Assembly (NCBI RefSeq): GCF_000170755.1
Contig: NZ_ABCK01000003.1
Location: forward strand, 62,001-126,000
Length of the DNA: 64,000 bases
Reading direction: 5' to 3'
Origin: Lentisphaera araneosa HTCC2155
Lineage (GTDB): Bacteria; Verrucomicrobiota; Lentisphaeria; Lentisphaerales; Lentisphaeraceae
In this document: one piece after another, positions 44,175 to 55,947 of the stretch
How positions within the stretch are numbered: the first letter of the stretch is position 1
Layout of the letters: every line of letters starts with the position of its first letter
The notes under the pieces: model-generated
The model's database searches: none
Told to the model about the DNA's origin: nothing
The model's input: the letters and a program-made list of their open reading frames with translations, nothing else
Made by a program: the position numbers and the translations under genes

Positions 44175-45011
44175 TTATGCACATTGTGTTTCATGAACAA
44201 CACTTGGAAATGAATATTCCAAAGCTGTATGAGGGCGACAATTATTGTATAAGTAAATAGCCTGCTTAATTGCTTTTTTAGCATCTTTAAAGTTCTTAAA
44301 TGTTTCGCGTAAATGATATTCATACTTCAGTATTCCGTTGACTCTTTCAGCTTTTGAATTTTCATAGCAATGGTTTTCTTCAGTCATACTGACAGGAAGA
44401 TTTCTATTCGTCAAGATTTCAATGTAATCGTGACAGCAGTACTGAGACCCACGGTCAGAGTGATGGATGGGGTATGACCCTTTTGGGAGACTTTTTAAAG
44501 CCATCTTTAATGCTTTGATACATCCTACAGCTTCTAAACTCTCTCCCACATTATAAGCAATAATTTTTCTAGAGAAGGCATCTGTGATTAACGCTAGATA
44601 AACAAAGCTTTTTGCAACTCTGATGTAGGTTATATCACAAACCCACACCTGGTTAGGTGCGGTTAACACCTTATCCTTTATTAGATTTTTGTAGACTTTA
44701 AAACGATGCCTAGAGTCAGTAGTTCGACAGTACTTCCTCTTTCTTTTGATTAATAGGCGTTCTTCGCGAGCTATATCGAATAAGCGATCTCGTCCTATCT
44801 GTATAGAATTCTCTTTGAAGTTATCTACTAACATATTCTGCAGCTTTCGAATTCCGAGCTCAGATTGAATGCAACGTTGTTCTTTAATAAGATCGATCAC
44901 AAGTTTTCTATCTACTTCTTTTTTGGTGCTTAAAGATTTATTTTTATAGAAATTTTGCCGACTCATATGGAGGTGATTACAAAGTTGTTTAACAGTAAAG
45001 TGGCTATTCAT
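44175..45011 (-). CDS. IS3-family transposase OrfB (DDE integrase domain)
   Basis: A 278-residue transposase subunit. The catalytic triad is Asp 126 (VWVCDITYI), Asp 186 (HHSDRGSQY) and Glu 222 (ENSKAERVNG), with the characteristic 35-residue spacing between the second and third. An N-terminal HTH_21-like region (LGIRKLQNMLVDNF, IQIGRDRLF) precedes the rve core. Its ATG overlaps the orfA stop (ATGA). It is probably made mainly as the OrfAB fusion by -1 frameshifting at 45044-45053. Confidence 0.92.
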   Translation of the reverse strand: MNSHFTVKQLCNHLHMSRQNFYKNKSLSTKKEVDRKLVIDLIKEQRCIQSELGIRKLQNMLVDNFKENSIQIGRDRLFDIAREERLLIKRKRKYCRTTDSRHRFKVYKNLIKDKVLTAPNQVWVCDITYIRVAKSFVYLALITDAFSRKIIAYNVGESLEAVGCIKALKMALKSLPKGSYPIHHSDRGSQYCCHDYIEILTNRNLPVSMTEENHCYENSKAERVNGILKYEYHLRETFKNFKDAKKAIKQAIYLYNNCRPHTALEYSFPSVVHETQCA

Positions 45012-45391
45012 TGATCTGACTCTTTTGACCGCTTCACACCGACTTTTTTTTTGAAGGCTTCTTTATCAGATACGCCGAACTCATCACAAGCTATATCAAA
45101 GTAAGCTTTATTCATAACATCACTTATCGCTAGTTCGGTTACTGTTTTCTCTAACTCAGCAATATGCTTTTTAAGAGCTTTAATCTCATCAATATCATTT
45201 TCTGTTTCCACTTTAATCACCTTTGGTAATAAGTCTGTTCTACCATACTTTTTGACCCAGGCTCTTACTGTACAAGAGCCTGATATCCCATAAGCTTGGC
45301 TCGCTTCTCCACAGCTTATAAATTTACCTTTGGAGATCTCGTTTACCACTTTTTGTTTAAATGATTCACTATATCTTATTGTATCTTTCAT
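45008..45391 (-). CDS. IS3-family transposase OrfA (helix-turn-helix)
   Basis: A 127-residue DNA-binding subunit: RYSESFKQKVVNEISKGKFISCGEASQAYGISGSCTVRAWVKKYG is the HTH_Tnp_1 region (described in parts), followed by a leucine-zipper-like coiled coil (IDEIKALKKHIAELEKTVTELAI). The C-terminal KKK codons contain the slippery A-run. Confidence 0.9.
   Translation of the reverse strand: MKDTIRYSESFKQKVVNEISKGKFISCGEASQAYGISGSCTVRAWVKKYGRTDLLPKVIKVETENDIDEIKALKKHIAELEKTVTELAISDVMNKAYFDIACDEFGVSDKEAFKKKVGVKRSKESDQ
45044..45053 (-). promoter_or_regulatory. Programmed -1 frameshift site (A9G)
   Basis: On the minus strand nine A are followed by G, containing the A-AAA-AAG slippery heptamer in the orfA frame (codons for FKKKV). 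From here the -1 frame is open through the orfB start with no stop, so a shift yields an OrfAB fusion, as known for IS3-family elements. Confidence 0.8.
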
Positions 45392-45482: not shown

Positions 45483-48400
45483 TTAAGCTTCTATCGCCTT
45501 CTTTGCTAAACCACAGCAGAGTTCTGTGAAGCTGATGCCATCGCGTTTGGCTGCCTTGGGAAGGAGTGAGCTAGAGGTAAAGCCGGGCATAGTGTTGGCT
45601 TCGAGGATTATGAACTTATCTGAATCAGGATTCCAGATCATATCAACGCGCATGAGGTGGCGACCCTTGAGAACTTTGAAGGATTCTTCCCCACATTTTT
45701 TAAGGCGTTCAGAGACATCTTCGGGAATCTCTTTTGGTGGGCAGTTATACTGAGTTTTACCTTTGCTATAAGTGTATTTAGCATCGTAGTCAAAAAAGCC
45801 TTCTGGAGGAATGATTTCAACGACGCTCAAGGCTTTGCCATCAATGAGGCCTACAGTGCATTCTATCCCCTTAAAAAAGCTTTCTACGAGCACTGTGTCA
45901 TCATTTTCAAAAGCGAGATCAATGGCTTTTCTAAGATCTCCTTCTTTTTCCACGAGGCTGAGACTTATACTTGAGCCTTGACGATTGGGTTTGACGACGC
46001 AGGGCAGCGTGATGTTCTGTGAGATTTCTTCATCTTTGGATCGTAAGACAACTGAGTCGCAAACGGGTAGGCCTGAATTGCGCAGTTCGCAAACGGCGGC
46101 GTCTTTGTCGATACAGAGTTCACTCGAAGTGATATCGCAGCCCACATAGGGGAAGCCCTGTCCTTCGATAAGTTTTTGCACTTGTCCATCTTCACCAAAT
46201 TCACCATGTAAAACGGGGAAAACGAGATCGATGTCTTTTGAGATTGCGGGGAGTGAAAAATCGGTAATATCTATTTCAGTGACTTCGTGACCACCATCGC
46301 GGAGGGCTTTAGCAACGGCCTCAGCAGATTGAAGGGAGATGGGACGTTCACTGGAGGGACCACCTTTTAAGACGGCGATTTTGAGCGCCTTTACCACATT
46401 GATTTTGCGCTTGTCACTAAAGACAACTTCTTGTTGCAGGCGAATGCCACAGGCATCGTAGACGCCTTGTTGAACGTATTCCATGAGGCGAGCATATTCA
46501 TCGGCGGAGCATTTGTTTTCATTGACAAAAAAGTTGGCGTGTAAATCCGATACGGCACAATGGGGGAAGCTAATGGATTTAAATCCATACTTATCGATCA
46601 ATTGACCAGCCGCCACATCACCTGGATTGCGAAAGGCACAGCCGGGATTTCTTCCGCCGGGTTGAGTTTTTTTGCGGAAGTCGCGTGTGCTTTGCACAAT
46701 TGCTTTGGAGCGTTGGGGAACGGCTGCTTTGAATTTCATGTCAATACTCGTGACGATAAAATCGTTTGGTAATGAGCAGGACCTGTAGTTCCAAGTGATT
46801 TCATCGTTTTGGTAAGATTTTACTTTGGCGTCTTGGTCGATGCCGTGAACAGCAATGACAAATTCGGATGTTTCTTGTCCTTGCGCACCGGCATTCATGC
46901 GAATGCCGCCACCAATAGAGCCGGGAACAGCTGCCAAAGCTTCTGCACCACCAAGATTATCTTCTTGTAAACGTTTGATGAGTTTGAGCCATTTGACGCC
47001 GGCACCCACTCGGGCGTTTTTTCCTTCGATTGTGATTTCGCTGAATTCACCCAAACGCAAGCGTATGATAATGCCATCAAAAAGTTGGTCACAGCCCACC
47101 ATATTGGAGCCTGCACCCAAGATTAAAGTTTTGAGTGAGTAACGCTTAGCAAACCTCATGAGTTCTTGAAGTTCTTCAACTGTCTGTGGTTCATAGCAAG
47201 CGTGTTGAGTTTTGCCGGCACCAAGAGTGGTGATTTCTGACCATTCAGGTTCGTGCAAGATATTCAAATCGGGAAGGCGTTCAGAGATGCTATGAGAAAT
47301 GAGTTGGTTTTTGAGCCAGGGGATGATGTCTTTGATTGTAGCGGCACCAATTATGGTAATAATGCAGTGCTCAGTAGTCGGGGTTTGGGCGAGTACTTTT
47401 TCGGCATTGTATTCCCAGTCTTCGCTCTCAAAAACCTCTGCTTTTGGTCCAATTAGGACTCGTAGGGCTTCCAGAGAAGGAGTGTCTTGGCGAGATGACC
47501 AAGCCGAGAAGGGGGGAGCAATAAAGACTTTATCAAACTCTTTGAGTTCTTGAGCAAATTGCTCAGTATAGGACTCGAGACGTTCATAGCGGTGAGGCTG
47601 GAATACGGCGATTTTTCGGTAAGGATCGTATTGTTCTTCCAGTGCAGAATTCAGAGCTTTGAGTTCTTTGGGGTGGTGGGCATAGTCTTCAAATAAAGTC
47701 AGAAAAGCGGTTTCGAAATGAACCTGTGAGCGCCTTTGCACACCGCAAAATTCTTGTAAGACTTCAGTCGCTTTCTCTGGATTGATACCTTCGTTTGTGC
47801 AGGCGACAATGGCGAGGCTCGCATTGAGGCGCATGAACTCGCCTTTTTGTATGAGTTTTAAATTAGCTTTTGCGGGCATGAACTCAACGTTTTCAATTCC
47901 TTGCAGTACGGCTAGGCAGGAGTCATCTTGGGAAGCGTAAACTTTTTGACTTTGTTTCGCAAATTTGCGGAAGTTATCGAAGAGCTGATTCACACCACCT
48001 ACACTCCAAGCATGATCATCGTCAGTATTGATGAGGACGCCTGTGCTAGGGCTGAGAGCTGCAATTGTGCCGTCTGATTCATCTGCTTCGATAATGAGTG
48101 GCCCATTAGGAGAGAAATGTGCAGCGGGGAAATCGCTGGAATTAAGATCGCCACCAATCATCCATGAGGCGGGTTCTTGATTTTGTTTAAAAATCCACGC
48201 ACACATAGAGGTGACGGTAGTTTTGCCATGAGATCCACCCACGGCAATCACTTTTGGAAAGCATGCACACAAAGCTTTGAGAAAATCTTGGCGTGAGACA
48301 ATGCTGAGTCCGATGTTTTTCGCATTCTCAAGTTCTAAATTATCTTTCTGAACAGCGCTGCTGACGATGACGAGACTGATCCCAGGTTTAATGAGTTCTC

Positions 48401-48572
48401 CTTCTTGATGATAGGAGATCACGATGCCAGACTCTTCGAGTTCGCGTGTTTTTGCACTCTGTGTTATGTCAGAGCCAGAAACTTTGAGCTTAGCTTGGTG
48501 GAGTAGGGAGGCCATGGCCGATAAACCAGCGCCACCAATACCTATGAAGTGAACATGCTTCCAAGGAAACAT
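45483..48572 (-). CDS. Trifunctional MurC-MurB-Ddl fusion protein
   Basis: One uninterrupted frame of 1029 residues with three complete enzymes of peptidoglycan precursor synthesis. Residues 1 to about 425 are MurC (UDP-MurNAc-L-Ala ligase): FIGIGGAGLSAMA, the P-loop GGSHGKTT at 112-119 and DYAHHPKELKAL. About 435-715 are MurB (UDP-GlcNAc-enolpyruvate reductase): LGAGSNMVG, AVPGSIGGGIRMNAGA, and NPGCAFRNP, where Cys stands at the usual Ser position. About 728-1029 are Ddl (D-Ala-D-Ala ligase): FPVLHGEFGEDG, VKPNRQGSSISL and ILEANTMPGFTSSSL. No stop, frameshift or domain decay is seen. MurC-Ddl fusions are known in Chlamydiae; I do not recall a described triple fusion. The next gene upstream (DUF493) ends two bases before its start. 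Confidence 0.95.
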   Translation of the reverse strand: MFPWKHVHFIGIGGAGLSAMASLLHQAKLKVSGSDITQSAKTRELEESGIVISYHQEGELIKPGISLVIVSSAVQKDNLELENAKNIGLSIVSRQDFLKALCACFPKVIAVGGSHGKTTVTSMCAWIFKQNQEPASWMIGGDLNSSDFPAAHFSPNGPLIIEADESDGTIAALSPSTGVLINTDDDHAWSVGGVNQLFDNFRKFAKQSQKVYASQDDSCLAVLQGIENVEFMPAKANLKLIQKGEFMRLNASLAIVACTNEGINPEKATEVLQEFCGVQRRSQVHFETAFLTLFEDYAHHPKELKALNSALEEQYDPYRKIAVFQPHRYERLESYTEQFAQELKEFDKVFIAPPFSAWSSRQDTPSLEALRVLIGPKAEVFESEDWEYNAEKVLAQTPTTEHCIITIIGAATIKDIIPWLKNQLISHSISERLPDLNILHEPEWSEITTLGAGKTQHACYEPQTVEELQELMRFAKRYSLKTLILGAGSNMVGCDQLFDGIIIRLRLGEFSEITIEGKNARVGAGVKWLKLIKRLQEDNLGGAEALAAVPGSIGGGIRMNAGAQGQETSEFVIAVHGIDQDAKVKSYQNDEITWNYRSCSLPNDFIVTSIDMKFKAAVPQRSKAIVQSTRDFRKKTQPGGRNPGCAFRNPGDVAAGQLIDKYGFKSISFPHCAVSDLHANFFVNENKCSADEYARLMEYVQQGVYDACGIRLQQEVVFSDKRKINVVKALKIAVLKGGPSSERPISLQSAEAVAKALRDGGHEVTEIDITDFSLPAISKDIDLVFPVLHGEFGEDGQVQKLIEGQGFPYVGCDITSSELCIDKDAAVCELRNSGLPVCDSVVLRSKDEEISQNITLPCVVKPNRQGSSISLSLVEKEGDLRKAIDLAFENDDTVLVESFFKGIECTVGLIDGKALSVVEIIPPEGFFDYDAKYTYSKGKTQYNCPPKEIPEDVSERLKKCGEESFKVLKGRHLMRVDMIWNPDSDKFIILEANTMPGFTSSSLLPKAAKRDGISFTELCCGLAKKAIEA

Positions 48573-48574
48573 AA

Positions 48575-48871
48575 TTAAAGTACCATTTTAACGCCATCAA
48601 TGGCGGAGAAGTCGGCTCCGACAGCTCGTAAAGATTCAAGGCTGTAGATGGTGCCCGAGACAATCCAACTTTGGTAGGTGCCCTTTTTAGTTGAGTTCCC
48701 CTTTTTTGGTGTGCTTTTCAAGTCGTGTTGATCGATGACTTTTTGTAAATCTTGGGGGATATTTTCAGCATTGGCCATAGCCATAATGCGAAACTGGCAG
48801 TCGAGGGGGAATTCTAATTGTTTTCCGGGGTCATCTTGCATAGTATTTGTTTCCTGAAATTTTTCTCTCAT
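48575..48871 (-). CDS. DUF493/YbeD-like protein
   Basis: A 98-residue protein with LEFPLDCQFRIMAMANA and a C-terminal half YQSWIVSGTIYSLESLRAVGADFSAIDGVKMVL, matching the small YbeD fold (alpha/beta, ACT-like). E. coli YbeD lies beside lipoate genes; no such genes are here. I chose ATG 48871 because GGAGGTGGGG lies just upstream; 48838 is an alternative. Located directly upstream of the Mur fusion, probably one transcript. Confidence 0.75.
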   Translation of the reverse strand: MREKFQETNTMQDDPGKQLEFPLDCQFRIMAMANAENIPQDLQKVIDQHDLKSTPKKGNSTKKGTYQSWIVSGTIYSLESLRAVGADFSAIDGVKMVL

Positions 48872-53716: not shown

Positions 53717-54784
53717 TTAAATCGTTGTTAAAAGAAGCTTGAGCTGTTTGCCGTAATCTTCAATTAAAGAGATAGAGCAATACTCATTATCCTTGTGGGC
53801 TTGTGCGGTTAAGCCAGGCCCAAAGTTGAAGCAAGGAACTCCCATTGCACTCAATTGTGCGACATCAGTCCAGGCTTGCTTAGCTTGTACGGGAAAAGCC
53901 AGTATATCGCAAGCTCTAGCAAAAAGAGGACTTTCGTGAACGGTGCCTGAAGGTGAGTTATCTTTGATATTGATTTCGAGACCATCCACTTTTAGATCGT
54001 TGACAAAATTGAGCACGTAATCTTCAGCTTCTTGCGGAGTGCGTACAGGTGCATAGCGGAAGTTGACGTTTGCTTCCCAGCGACCGGGGATTGATGTGCG
54101 GCCAGGAGTACAGCTTTCTTCAGTGATCGATAAGACATCGAAAAAATCACAGCCAAAAACTTCGTGTTTTACAGGTTCGATTTCCGCCATTGCAGAGATG
54201 AATGGAAGTGCTTTGTAGAAAGCATTTTCACCATTCCAAGGACGAGCGGAATGGCAGGCCATGCCAGTGCTAACAACACGTGCATGTAAACTACCGCAGC
54301 AGCCAATTTGTATGGTGTTATCAGTGGGTTCACCGACAATGGCTAGATCAATACTTTTAAAGAAGTCGGGATACTCGCCAATCAGATCGTATAGGCCGTT
54401 GTCTTCCATCTTGGTTCCTTCTTCACGGGAATAGATCACAATACTTATACGAGCACGTTTTAAAATGTCTTCGTGATTGTCTGCAGTGATGCGGAAAAAA
54501 GCGGCTTCGGCAGCAAGCATATCAGAACCGCCAGCTCCGTAGAGTTTATCATCCTCTATATAAGGTTTGAACCATTGCGGTACAACATCAGAGTGGCCCA
54601 CCATAGTGATGTGTGGGAGGTGAGTATTTTCTTTGCCTAATTCTATGATGAGGCAGTCTTTAAACTCTCTGATTTCTGGCTGAGGAAAGTTGTCTTCGGC
54701 AAACTTTTTGATGAAGGCAGTCAATTCTTGTTCGTGAAAAGTGGGAGAAGGAATAGAGAGCATTTCTGTGAGAAGTTTAATCAT
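53717..54784 (-). CDS. dapE: M20 family peptidase, probable succinyl-diaminopimelate desuccinylase
   Basis: A 355-residue zinc metallohydrolase. Zinc ligands are in TMVGHSDVVP, GAGGSDMLAAEA, SREEGTK, GEPTDNTIQIGCCG and the C-terminal GLTAQAHKDNEYCS. A dimerisation domain (about 180-290) is inserted. DapE, ArgE and other M20 members share this pattern; DapE is favoured by the neighbour dapC. It overlaps that gene by four bases (ATGA). Confidence 0.8.
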   Translation of the reverse strand: MIKLLTEMLSIPSPTFHEQELTAFIKKFAEDNFPQPEIREFKDCLIIELGKENTHLPHITMVGHSDVVPQWFKPYIEDDKLYGAGGSDMLAAEAAFFRITADNHEDILKRARISIVIYSREEGTKMEDNGLYDLIGEYPDFFKSIDLAIVGEPTDNTIQIGCCGSLHARVVSTGMACHSARPWNGENAFYKALPFISAMAEIEPVKHEVFGCDFFDVLSITEESCTPGRTSIPGRWEANVNFRYAPVRTPQEAEDYVLNFVNDLKVDGLEINIKDNSPSGTVHESPLFARACDILAFPVQAKQAWTDVAQLSAMGVPCFNFGPGLTAQAHKDNEYCSISLIEDYGKQLKLLLTTI

Positions 54785-55947
54785 GAGGGACCTTTAATAT
54801 TGAGTGATTGGATGCGTTTTGCGATTTCTTCGCATTGATTGAGAGTGGAGCAATAAACCATGCGAATGAAACCTTCGCCATCTTTGCCGAATGCAGTACC
54901 CGGAGTGAGCACGAGGTGCTGTTCAATAAAGAGTTCCATGAGCTGTTCAGAGCTGGAGAATTGGGGGTGGGAGAACCAGAGGTAGAAACTGGCATCGCCA
55001 CCAAAAATTTCGAAGCCTTTAGATTCGAGAGCTTCGCGAATGATTTTTTGCTTAATTTTGTATTCTTCGGAGAATTGTTTTGGGTGCTGATCATCATTCC
55101 AGGCAGCAATAGCGGCATCTTGGATGAAGTCTGGGGTTCCAACTCCTAAGGCTGGGCGCATGAGCAAAATCTTCTTCATGAGTTCAGTGTTTTGACTCAA
55201 TAGGGCCCCTGACCTAAAGCCAGTCATGTGCGAGCGCTTGGATAATGACCGTATACAAAGCCAGTTTTGACTCTCGGGGAAGTCGAGGATGGAGCTAGGG
55301 AGGTCTTTGTAAAAAATGTCGTTATAACATTCGTCAGAGCAAACGAGGAAGTCGTATTGTTCAGCAAGCTTTAAAAGCTTTTGGAGATAGTCTTTCGAGG
55401 CAATCGCACTAGTGGGGTTATGTGGCGAGTTGATCCAAAACATTTGGCATTTGTGCCAATCATTTGCGGAGATCGTATCCAAGTCGGGAAGAAAGTTAGT
55501 TTCTCGTGAGACGGGAAGTTCGCGAAAGGGGATATTGAAAAGACCAGCACTCGACGCATACACAGGGTAAGAAAGAGAGGGAGCCCATATTTCTTGACCT
55601 TCAGACCAATCAAAAAGCAAAGCTAAATGAAAGACTGCTTCCTTTGAGCCATTGGTAGAGCAGACCTGAGTATCAGGATTGAATTCAATCTTATGGTTAC
55701 GCTGGGCCCAATCCGCAATGCTTTGACGCAAGCTGACTTTGCCTTTAAATGAGGGGTACTGAGAGATTTTACGGTTAGTTAAGCTTTCTTCCATGGCTTT
55801 GTAAGCTTCAGGATAAGTTCTTTCTATGGGGTCGCCAGTAGTTAAGTTGATAACGTGGTGTCCATCTGCTTTGAGTTGATTTGCCAAGTTATGGTACTTA
55901 CTCAAAGAGTATTCATTCTTGCTACTTAGGTAAGTGTTGTATTTCAT
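54781..55947 (-). CDS. dapC: Class I/II aminotransferase, probable succinyldiaminopimelate transaminase
   Basis: A 388-residue PLP enzyme. YSLSKYHNLANQLKADGHHVINLTTGDP, STNGSKEAVFHLALLFDW, WINSPHNPTSAIASKD, VCSDECYNDIFY and RSLSKRSHMTGFRSGAL (PLP lysine in SLSKRS) are class I landmarks. Linked and coupled to the dapE-like gene, so DapC function in the succinylase route to meso-DAP is the best reading; a general aromatic or alanine transaminase is the alternative. First gene of the pair. Confidence 0.8.
   Translation of the reverse strand: MKYNTYLSSKNEYSLSKYHNLANQLKADGHHVINLTTGDPIERTYPEAYKAMEESLTNRKISQYPSFKGKVSLRQSIADWAQRNHKIEFNPDTQVCSTNGSKEAVFHLALLFDWSEGQEIWAPSLSYPVYASSAGLFNIPFRELPVSRETNFLPDLDTISANDWHKCQMFWINSPHNPTSAIASKDYLQKLLKLAEQYDFLVCSDECYNDIFYKDLPSSILDFPESQNWLCIRSLSKRSHMTGFRSGALLSQNTELMKKILLMRPALGVGTPDFIQDAAIAAWNDDQHPKQFSEEYKIKQKIIREALESKGFEIFGGDASFYLWFSHPQFSSSEQLMELFIEQHLVLTPGTAFGKDGEGFIRMVYCSTLNQCEEIAKRIQSLNIKGPS

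Follow-up and report, generated by a model that had tools for sequence, protein, structure and literature searches.

A single-chain MurC-MurB-Ddl fusion in Lentisphaera, predicted to be a trifunctional peptidoglycan-precursor enzyme

The closest described system is the MurC-MurB ("MurB/C") fusion of Verrucomicrobium spinosum, a member of a related lineage in the same superphylum. It complements E. coli mutants in murB and in murC, and cell extract leaves it uncut; its MurB activity could not be demonstrated in vitro (PMC4803751). The gene is essential (PMC12283558). The Lentisphaera protein described here likewise carries MurC and then MurB from the N to the C terminus. It differs in that Ddl lies in the same frame, whereas the V. 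spinosum fusion has no Ddl domain and leaves ddl as a gene of its own, which in that group is usually adjacent. The MurC of MurC-MurB fusions from other classes is also of a divergent lineage (about 240 versus about 600 bits to the HMM of the class that includes Lentisphaera, hereafter the class). A MurC-Ddl fusion is known from Chlamydia (McCoy and Maurelli 2005, as cited in PMC4803751). That protein (NCBIfam NF011171) likewise holds MurC and Ddl in one chain with MurC first, but it has no MurB between them, where the Lentisphaera chain has one.

A sequence-only reading of the locus had proposed a three-enzyme chain and had named the chlamydial fusions as known. The chain is real, and the chlamydial fusions are on record both in NCBIfam and in print. 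The reading had overlooked the closest precedent, that of V. spinosum (PMC4803751), as well as the two-domain MurB-Ddl and MurC-MurB versions within the class. In the class MurB-Ddl fusions, the seam is homologous to that of the triple chain and the domains are related, but MurC is encoded separately. No report of a triple chain or of a MurB-Ddl fusion was found in a search of open-licence papers. Automatic database entries presumably already label the protein as multidomain. The triple chain goes one step beyond the published two-enzyme Mur fusions, and we regard its novelty as moderate.

The window is the whole stretch of DNA analysed, 64,000 nucleotides (64 kb) from the genome of Lentisphaera araneosa HTCC2155. 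The genome contained 6,023,180 bases in 81 contigs and was 96.7% complete. The murC-murB-ddl fusion gene lies at 45483..48572 on the minus strand; the sequence-only reading gave no strand. It contained 3090 bp with an ATG start and zero internal stops in the ORF translation of the window, and it encodes 1029 amino acids. The translation and the Pfam and NCBIfam matches bear out the single uninterrupted MurC-MurB-Ddl frame first read from the letters. All parts are on the minus strand. By HMM boundaries, the MurC domain spans residues 2-422 (47307..48569), the MurB domain residues 434-718 (46419..47273), and the Ddl domain (D-alanine--D-alanine ligase) residues 731-1024 (45501..46382). From these boundaries, the seams are just 11 and 12 residues long. 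The MurC-MurB seam (about 11 residues, 47274..47306) is in frame and 87-91% identical across the genus, and the MurB-Ddl seam (about 12 residues) is at 46383..46418.

Each part of the protein matched two Pfam families above the gathering cut-offs. These were Mur_ligase (6-103) and Mur_ligase_C (281-374) for MurC, FAD_binding_4 (460-584) and MurB_C (625-718) for MurB, and Dala_Dala_lig_N (up to 812) and Dala_Dala_lig_C (833-1019) for Ddl. The MurB model TIGR00179 passes (149.5 against a cut-off of 144.5), as do the NCBI Ddl models NF002378 (294.9 versus 243) and TIGR01205 (259.2 versus 245.65). The MurC equivalog TIGR01082 scored 276.5, below its cut-off of 335, with the Pfam Mur ligase domains present. 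The chlamydial bifunctional MurC-Ddl model NF011171 scored 278.7 bits versus a cut-off of 1015. A PDB search returned zero solved structures covering two of the MurC, MurB and Ddl domains together. An AlphaFold2 model of the fusion, built from a two-row alignment, was discarded at a mean pLDDT of 27.7.

The Ddl domain keeps all 15 of the 15 sites tested in a site alignment to the catalytic residues of E. coli DdlB. In the MurB domain, Y596, R597, N649 and E715 match E. coli Y158, R159, N233 and E325. The general-acid position, Ser229 in E. coli, aligns with C645 (codon at 46638..46640, minus strand). The sequence-only reading had pointed out this Cys in place of the catalytic Ser. The substitution stands; its oddness does not. 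Cys is the commoner state at this position (44 of 64 aligned MurBs), and it is also found in the MurB of the solved structure 2gqt, a Thermus enzyme. The domain does not contain the stretch that bears E. coli Y190 and Y254, and 61 of the 64 aligned sequences are gapped there too. MurBs without the Tyr190 loop are the type II subtype.

The MurC domain contains the P-loop GGSHGKTT. Its catalytic sites follow the Mur ligase literature, in E. coli numbering. Six of the seven are kept: K117, E162, H187, N250, R281 and D296 correspond to E. coli K130, E174, H199, N296, R327 and D351. The seventh, the equivalent of the usually conserved N293, is M247. This position is Met in the three Lentisphaera species and Asn in the other ten triples. 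A different change was observed in the separate MurCs of the MurB-Ddl families, where a pattern that ends in F/Y-Q (N293 to Gln) takes the place of the GxHN motif. These MurCs came from G012, G020, G026, G030, G077, G082, G094, G096 and G142 (loci L145, L102, L148, L143, L098, L147, L097, L146 and L084).

A DUF493 gene lies directly upstream of the fusion (48575..48871, minus strand), and its stop codon is 2 nt before the fusion ATG. A homologous DUF493 gene is directly upstream in all five of the five triple genomes of the window's family. The usual cell-division cluster was not present around the gene in any of the class loci with identified neighbours, which were few. Downstream, an IS3-family element with two overlapping ORFs (44175-45391) ends 91 nt from the fusion stop. 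The Lentisphaera marina locus has no ORF matching this IS3-type element. A promoter and terminator scan did no better than shuffled sequence. Farther along the window, the genes at 53717-55947 resemble two enzymes of diaminopimelate synthesis, DapE (desuccinylase) and a DapC/DapL-type aminotransferase. Diaminopimelate is another peptidoglycan precursor.

The fusion is intact in the two sister Lentisphaera genomes, which are in 2 and 3 contigs. That of L. marina contained 1030 amino acids with 85% identity and an open frame. That of the third Lentisphaera genome (two contigs) contained 1027 amino acids and is likewise complete and in frame. Within the genus, purifying selection on each of the three domains is strong. 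Against the two other genomes, dN/dS was 0.056-0.058 for MurC, 0.031-0.075 for MurB and 0.028-0.059 for Ddl, ratios that are rough because synonymous sites are near saturation. Both seams are 85-92% identical in protein within the genus. The three species share no start codon near the seams that is preceded by a Shine-Dalgarno-like sequence.

The window's genome contained one MurB_C match, the fusion itself, and one Ddl match to a query with the entire Ddl domain. Two further weak ATP-grasp matches vanish with this query. The genome contained one good MurC. The runner-up was a Mpl-like ligase of about 480 residues and 31% identity, and there are four other Mur-ligase-type genes besides it and the fusion. 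The two sister genomes had no second MurB, Ddl or proper MurC among the matches listed. The sequence-only reading had asked for separate murB or ddl copies to be sought, and none was found in this genome or its two sisters. Another genome of the window's family, G003, has a separate, distant MurB (L058 8005-9036) and a single Ddl (L109 2533-3441) that shares 54% identity with the Lentisphaera domain. This draft genome yielded no proper MurC.

A MurB match was recovered from at least 170 of the 198 genomes of the class. The domain search across relatives that the sequence-only reading had suggested recovered the triple MurC-MurB-Ddl chain from at least 13 genomes in five families. These are f1, whose triples span two genera, and f7, f12, f13 and f17, which lie outside the window's own family. 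Among the matches listed, MurC-MurB is the architecture of f14, f15, f16 and f18, and MurB-Ddl that of f5, f9, f19, f20, f21 and f24. Judged by frame length among these matches, MurB-Ddl is the commonest architecture in the class, and MurC in its genomes is a separate gene located elsewhere. A separate MurB was found, again among the matches listed, in f2, f3, f4, f11, one f1 genus and one f5 genus. In f11 and f2, murC directly adjoins ddl (L111 2347-4552 and L112 4148-6385), and murB, of a distant type, lies at another site. The arrangement looks as though a murC-murB-ddl unit had lost its MurB and another had taken over. Some fusions carry additional sequence. The MurB-Ddl fusion of G142 (L052 7690-11262) has a C-terminal stretch of about 580 residues with no Pfam family match. 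The MurC-MurB fusion of G049 (L049 7715-10693) is extended at its N terminus by about 260 residues that match no Pfam family, and several other-class MurC-MurB proteins have similar N-terminal extensions (L119, L120 and L121).

In other classes of Verrucomicrobiota, MurC-MurB is usual, with about 670-960 amino acids in the loci read. There ddl mostly overlaps or directly follows the fused murCB. G378, which is outside the class, encodes murC, murB and ddl as three abutting genes. The four longest frames listed outside the class (G250, G379, G263 and G309) were considered as triples and rejected. They are MurC-MurB proteins with N-terminal extensions and a separate ddl.

We built quick trees at the domain level, without a species tree. 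In the MurB tree, one group (37 rows, SH-aLRT 100) holds all fused MurBs of the class and, nested among them, three single ones. In the Ddl tree, one group (33 rows, SH-aLRT 96) unites all fused Ddl domains with four single ones; the Ddl of the MurC-MurB families and of f3 is a different and distant one. In the MurC tree, a single clade of the fused MurCs of the class plus f3 is compatible with the data (p 0.377), a set that was picked after the tree was viewed. The same clade without f3 is rejected (p 0.022). Triples alone as one clean clade were rejected in all three trees (AU p 0.003-0.033), since they are interspersed with nested MurC-MurB chains and single genes. The MurB-Ddl joint is of equal length (16 residues in most MurB-Ddl relatives, about 12 in the window's protein) in double and triple chains, with similar flanks.

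The domain trees fit a history with one old MurB-Ddl seam, later breaks, and swaps of Ddl and MurB. Several separate fusion events are a possible alternative. A bolder account is that one early triple fusion in the class was a real multienzyme unit, in which MurB handed UDP-MurNAc to MurC with Ddl nearby, and that it was then repeatedly broken at different seams while single modules were swapped. The swaps would be a foreign Ddl after MurC-MurB, and a foreign MurB that left murC and ddl adjacent. We hold this account to be tentative and rather doubtful. As for how the chain itself formed, the stops and starts between adjacent murC, murB and ddl may have been lost. The triple chain probably arose in this way because the three genes were neighbours in the ancestral order of cell-wall genes. 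The abutting trio of G378 and the overlapping or adjacent murCB and ddl of most other-class loci support this.

Very probably, the product of the gene is a cytoplasmic enzyme with three functions in making peptidoglycan precursors; it is translated as one chain and provides the only MurB and Ddl identified in the genome, and the only proper MurC. The MurB domain would reduce UDP-GlcNAc-enolpyruvate to UDP-MurNAc, and the tethered MurC domain would add L-Ala to it. The Ddl domain would independently supply D-Ala-D-Ala for MurF. One chain would fix the enzymes at a 1:1:1 ratio and keep MurB beside MurC. All three domains are predicted to be active in the uncut protein.

Other explanations have to be set against this trifunctional enzyme. 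The join could be a sequencing or assembly artefact between neighbouring genes, a concern raised by the sequence-only reading. The frame is open at the same length in independent Lentisphaera genomes, which rules out chance and assembly error; the same frame also occurs in four other families, and we give this explanation practically no weight. Alternatively, cleavage of a polyprotein, or translation from internal starts, could yield separate enzymes, and the fusion would then be a mere co-expression device. Tethering is not essential to the enzymes, since one or both joints are missing in other families of the class, and this would suit such a device. Against cutting, the seams are only 11-12 residues long by HMM boundary, and the V. 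spinosum MurC-MurB fusion is left uncleaved by extract of its own cells (PMC4803751). Internal starts are opposed by the lack of a conserved seam start with a Shine-Dalgarno sequence in the three species. We consider a divided product unlikely.

It is less likely still that one domain, most likely MurB or MurC, is a weak or dead scaffold and that another enzyme does its reaction. The change of MurC N293 to Met in Lentisphaera, the undetectable MurB activity of the V. spinosum fusion in vitro and the Mpl-like Mur ligase in the genome would fit a dead domain. However, the other key residues are all kept, each domain is under strong purifying selection, and no alternative MurB or Ddl was found in the genome. 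The V. spinosum fusion, moreover, complements both murB and murC mutants (PMC4803751).

The fusion of the window adds a third catalytic activity to the two that known Mur enzyme fusions combine. It is also a warning for annotation pipelines, because the MurC part scores below the curated cut-off for murC, and murB and ddl seem to be absent as separate genes. Inhibitors of three different targets, for example D-cycloserine via Ddl, should all act on a single protein of this kind. Any benefit of tethering may lie in channelling, in assembly or in a fixed dosage; the sequence-only reading had suggested complex formation or dosage. Separate, MurC-MurB, MurB-Ddl and triple versions all occur within one bacterial class, and this set of architectures permits a direct test of whether tethering early peptidoglycan enzymes changes flux. 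If the early triple fusion were true, the class would be a natural experiment on whether the tethering of cell-wall enzymes matters.
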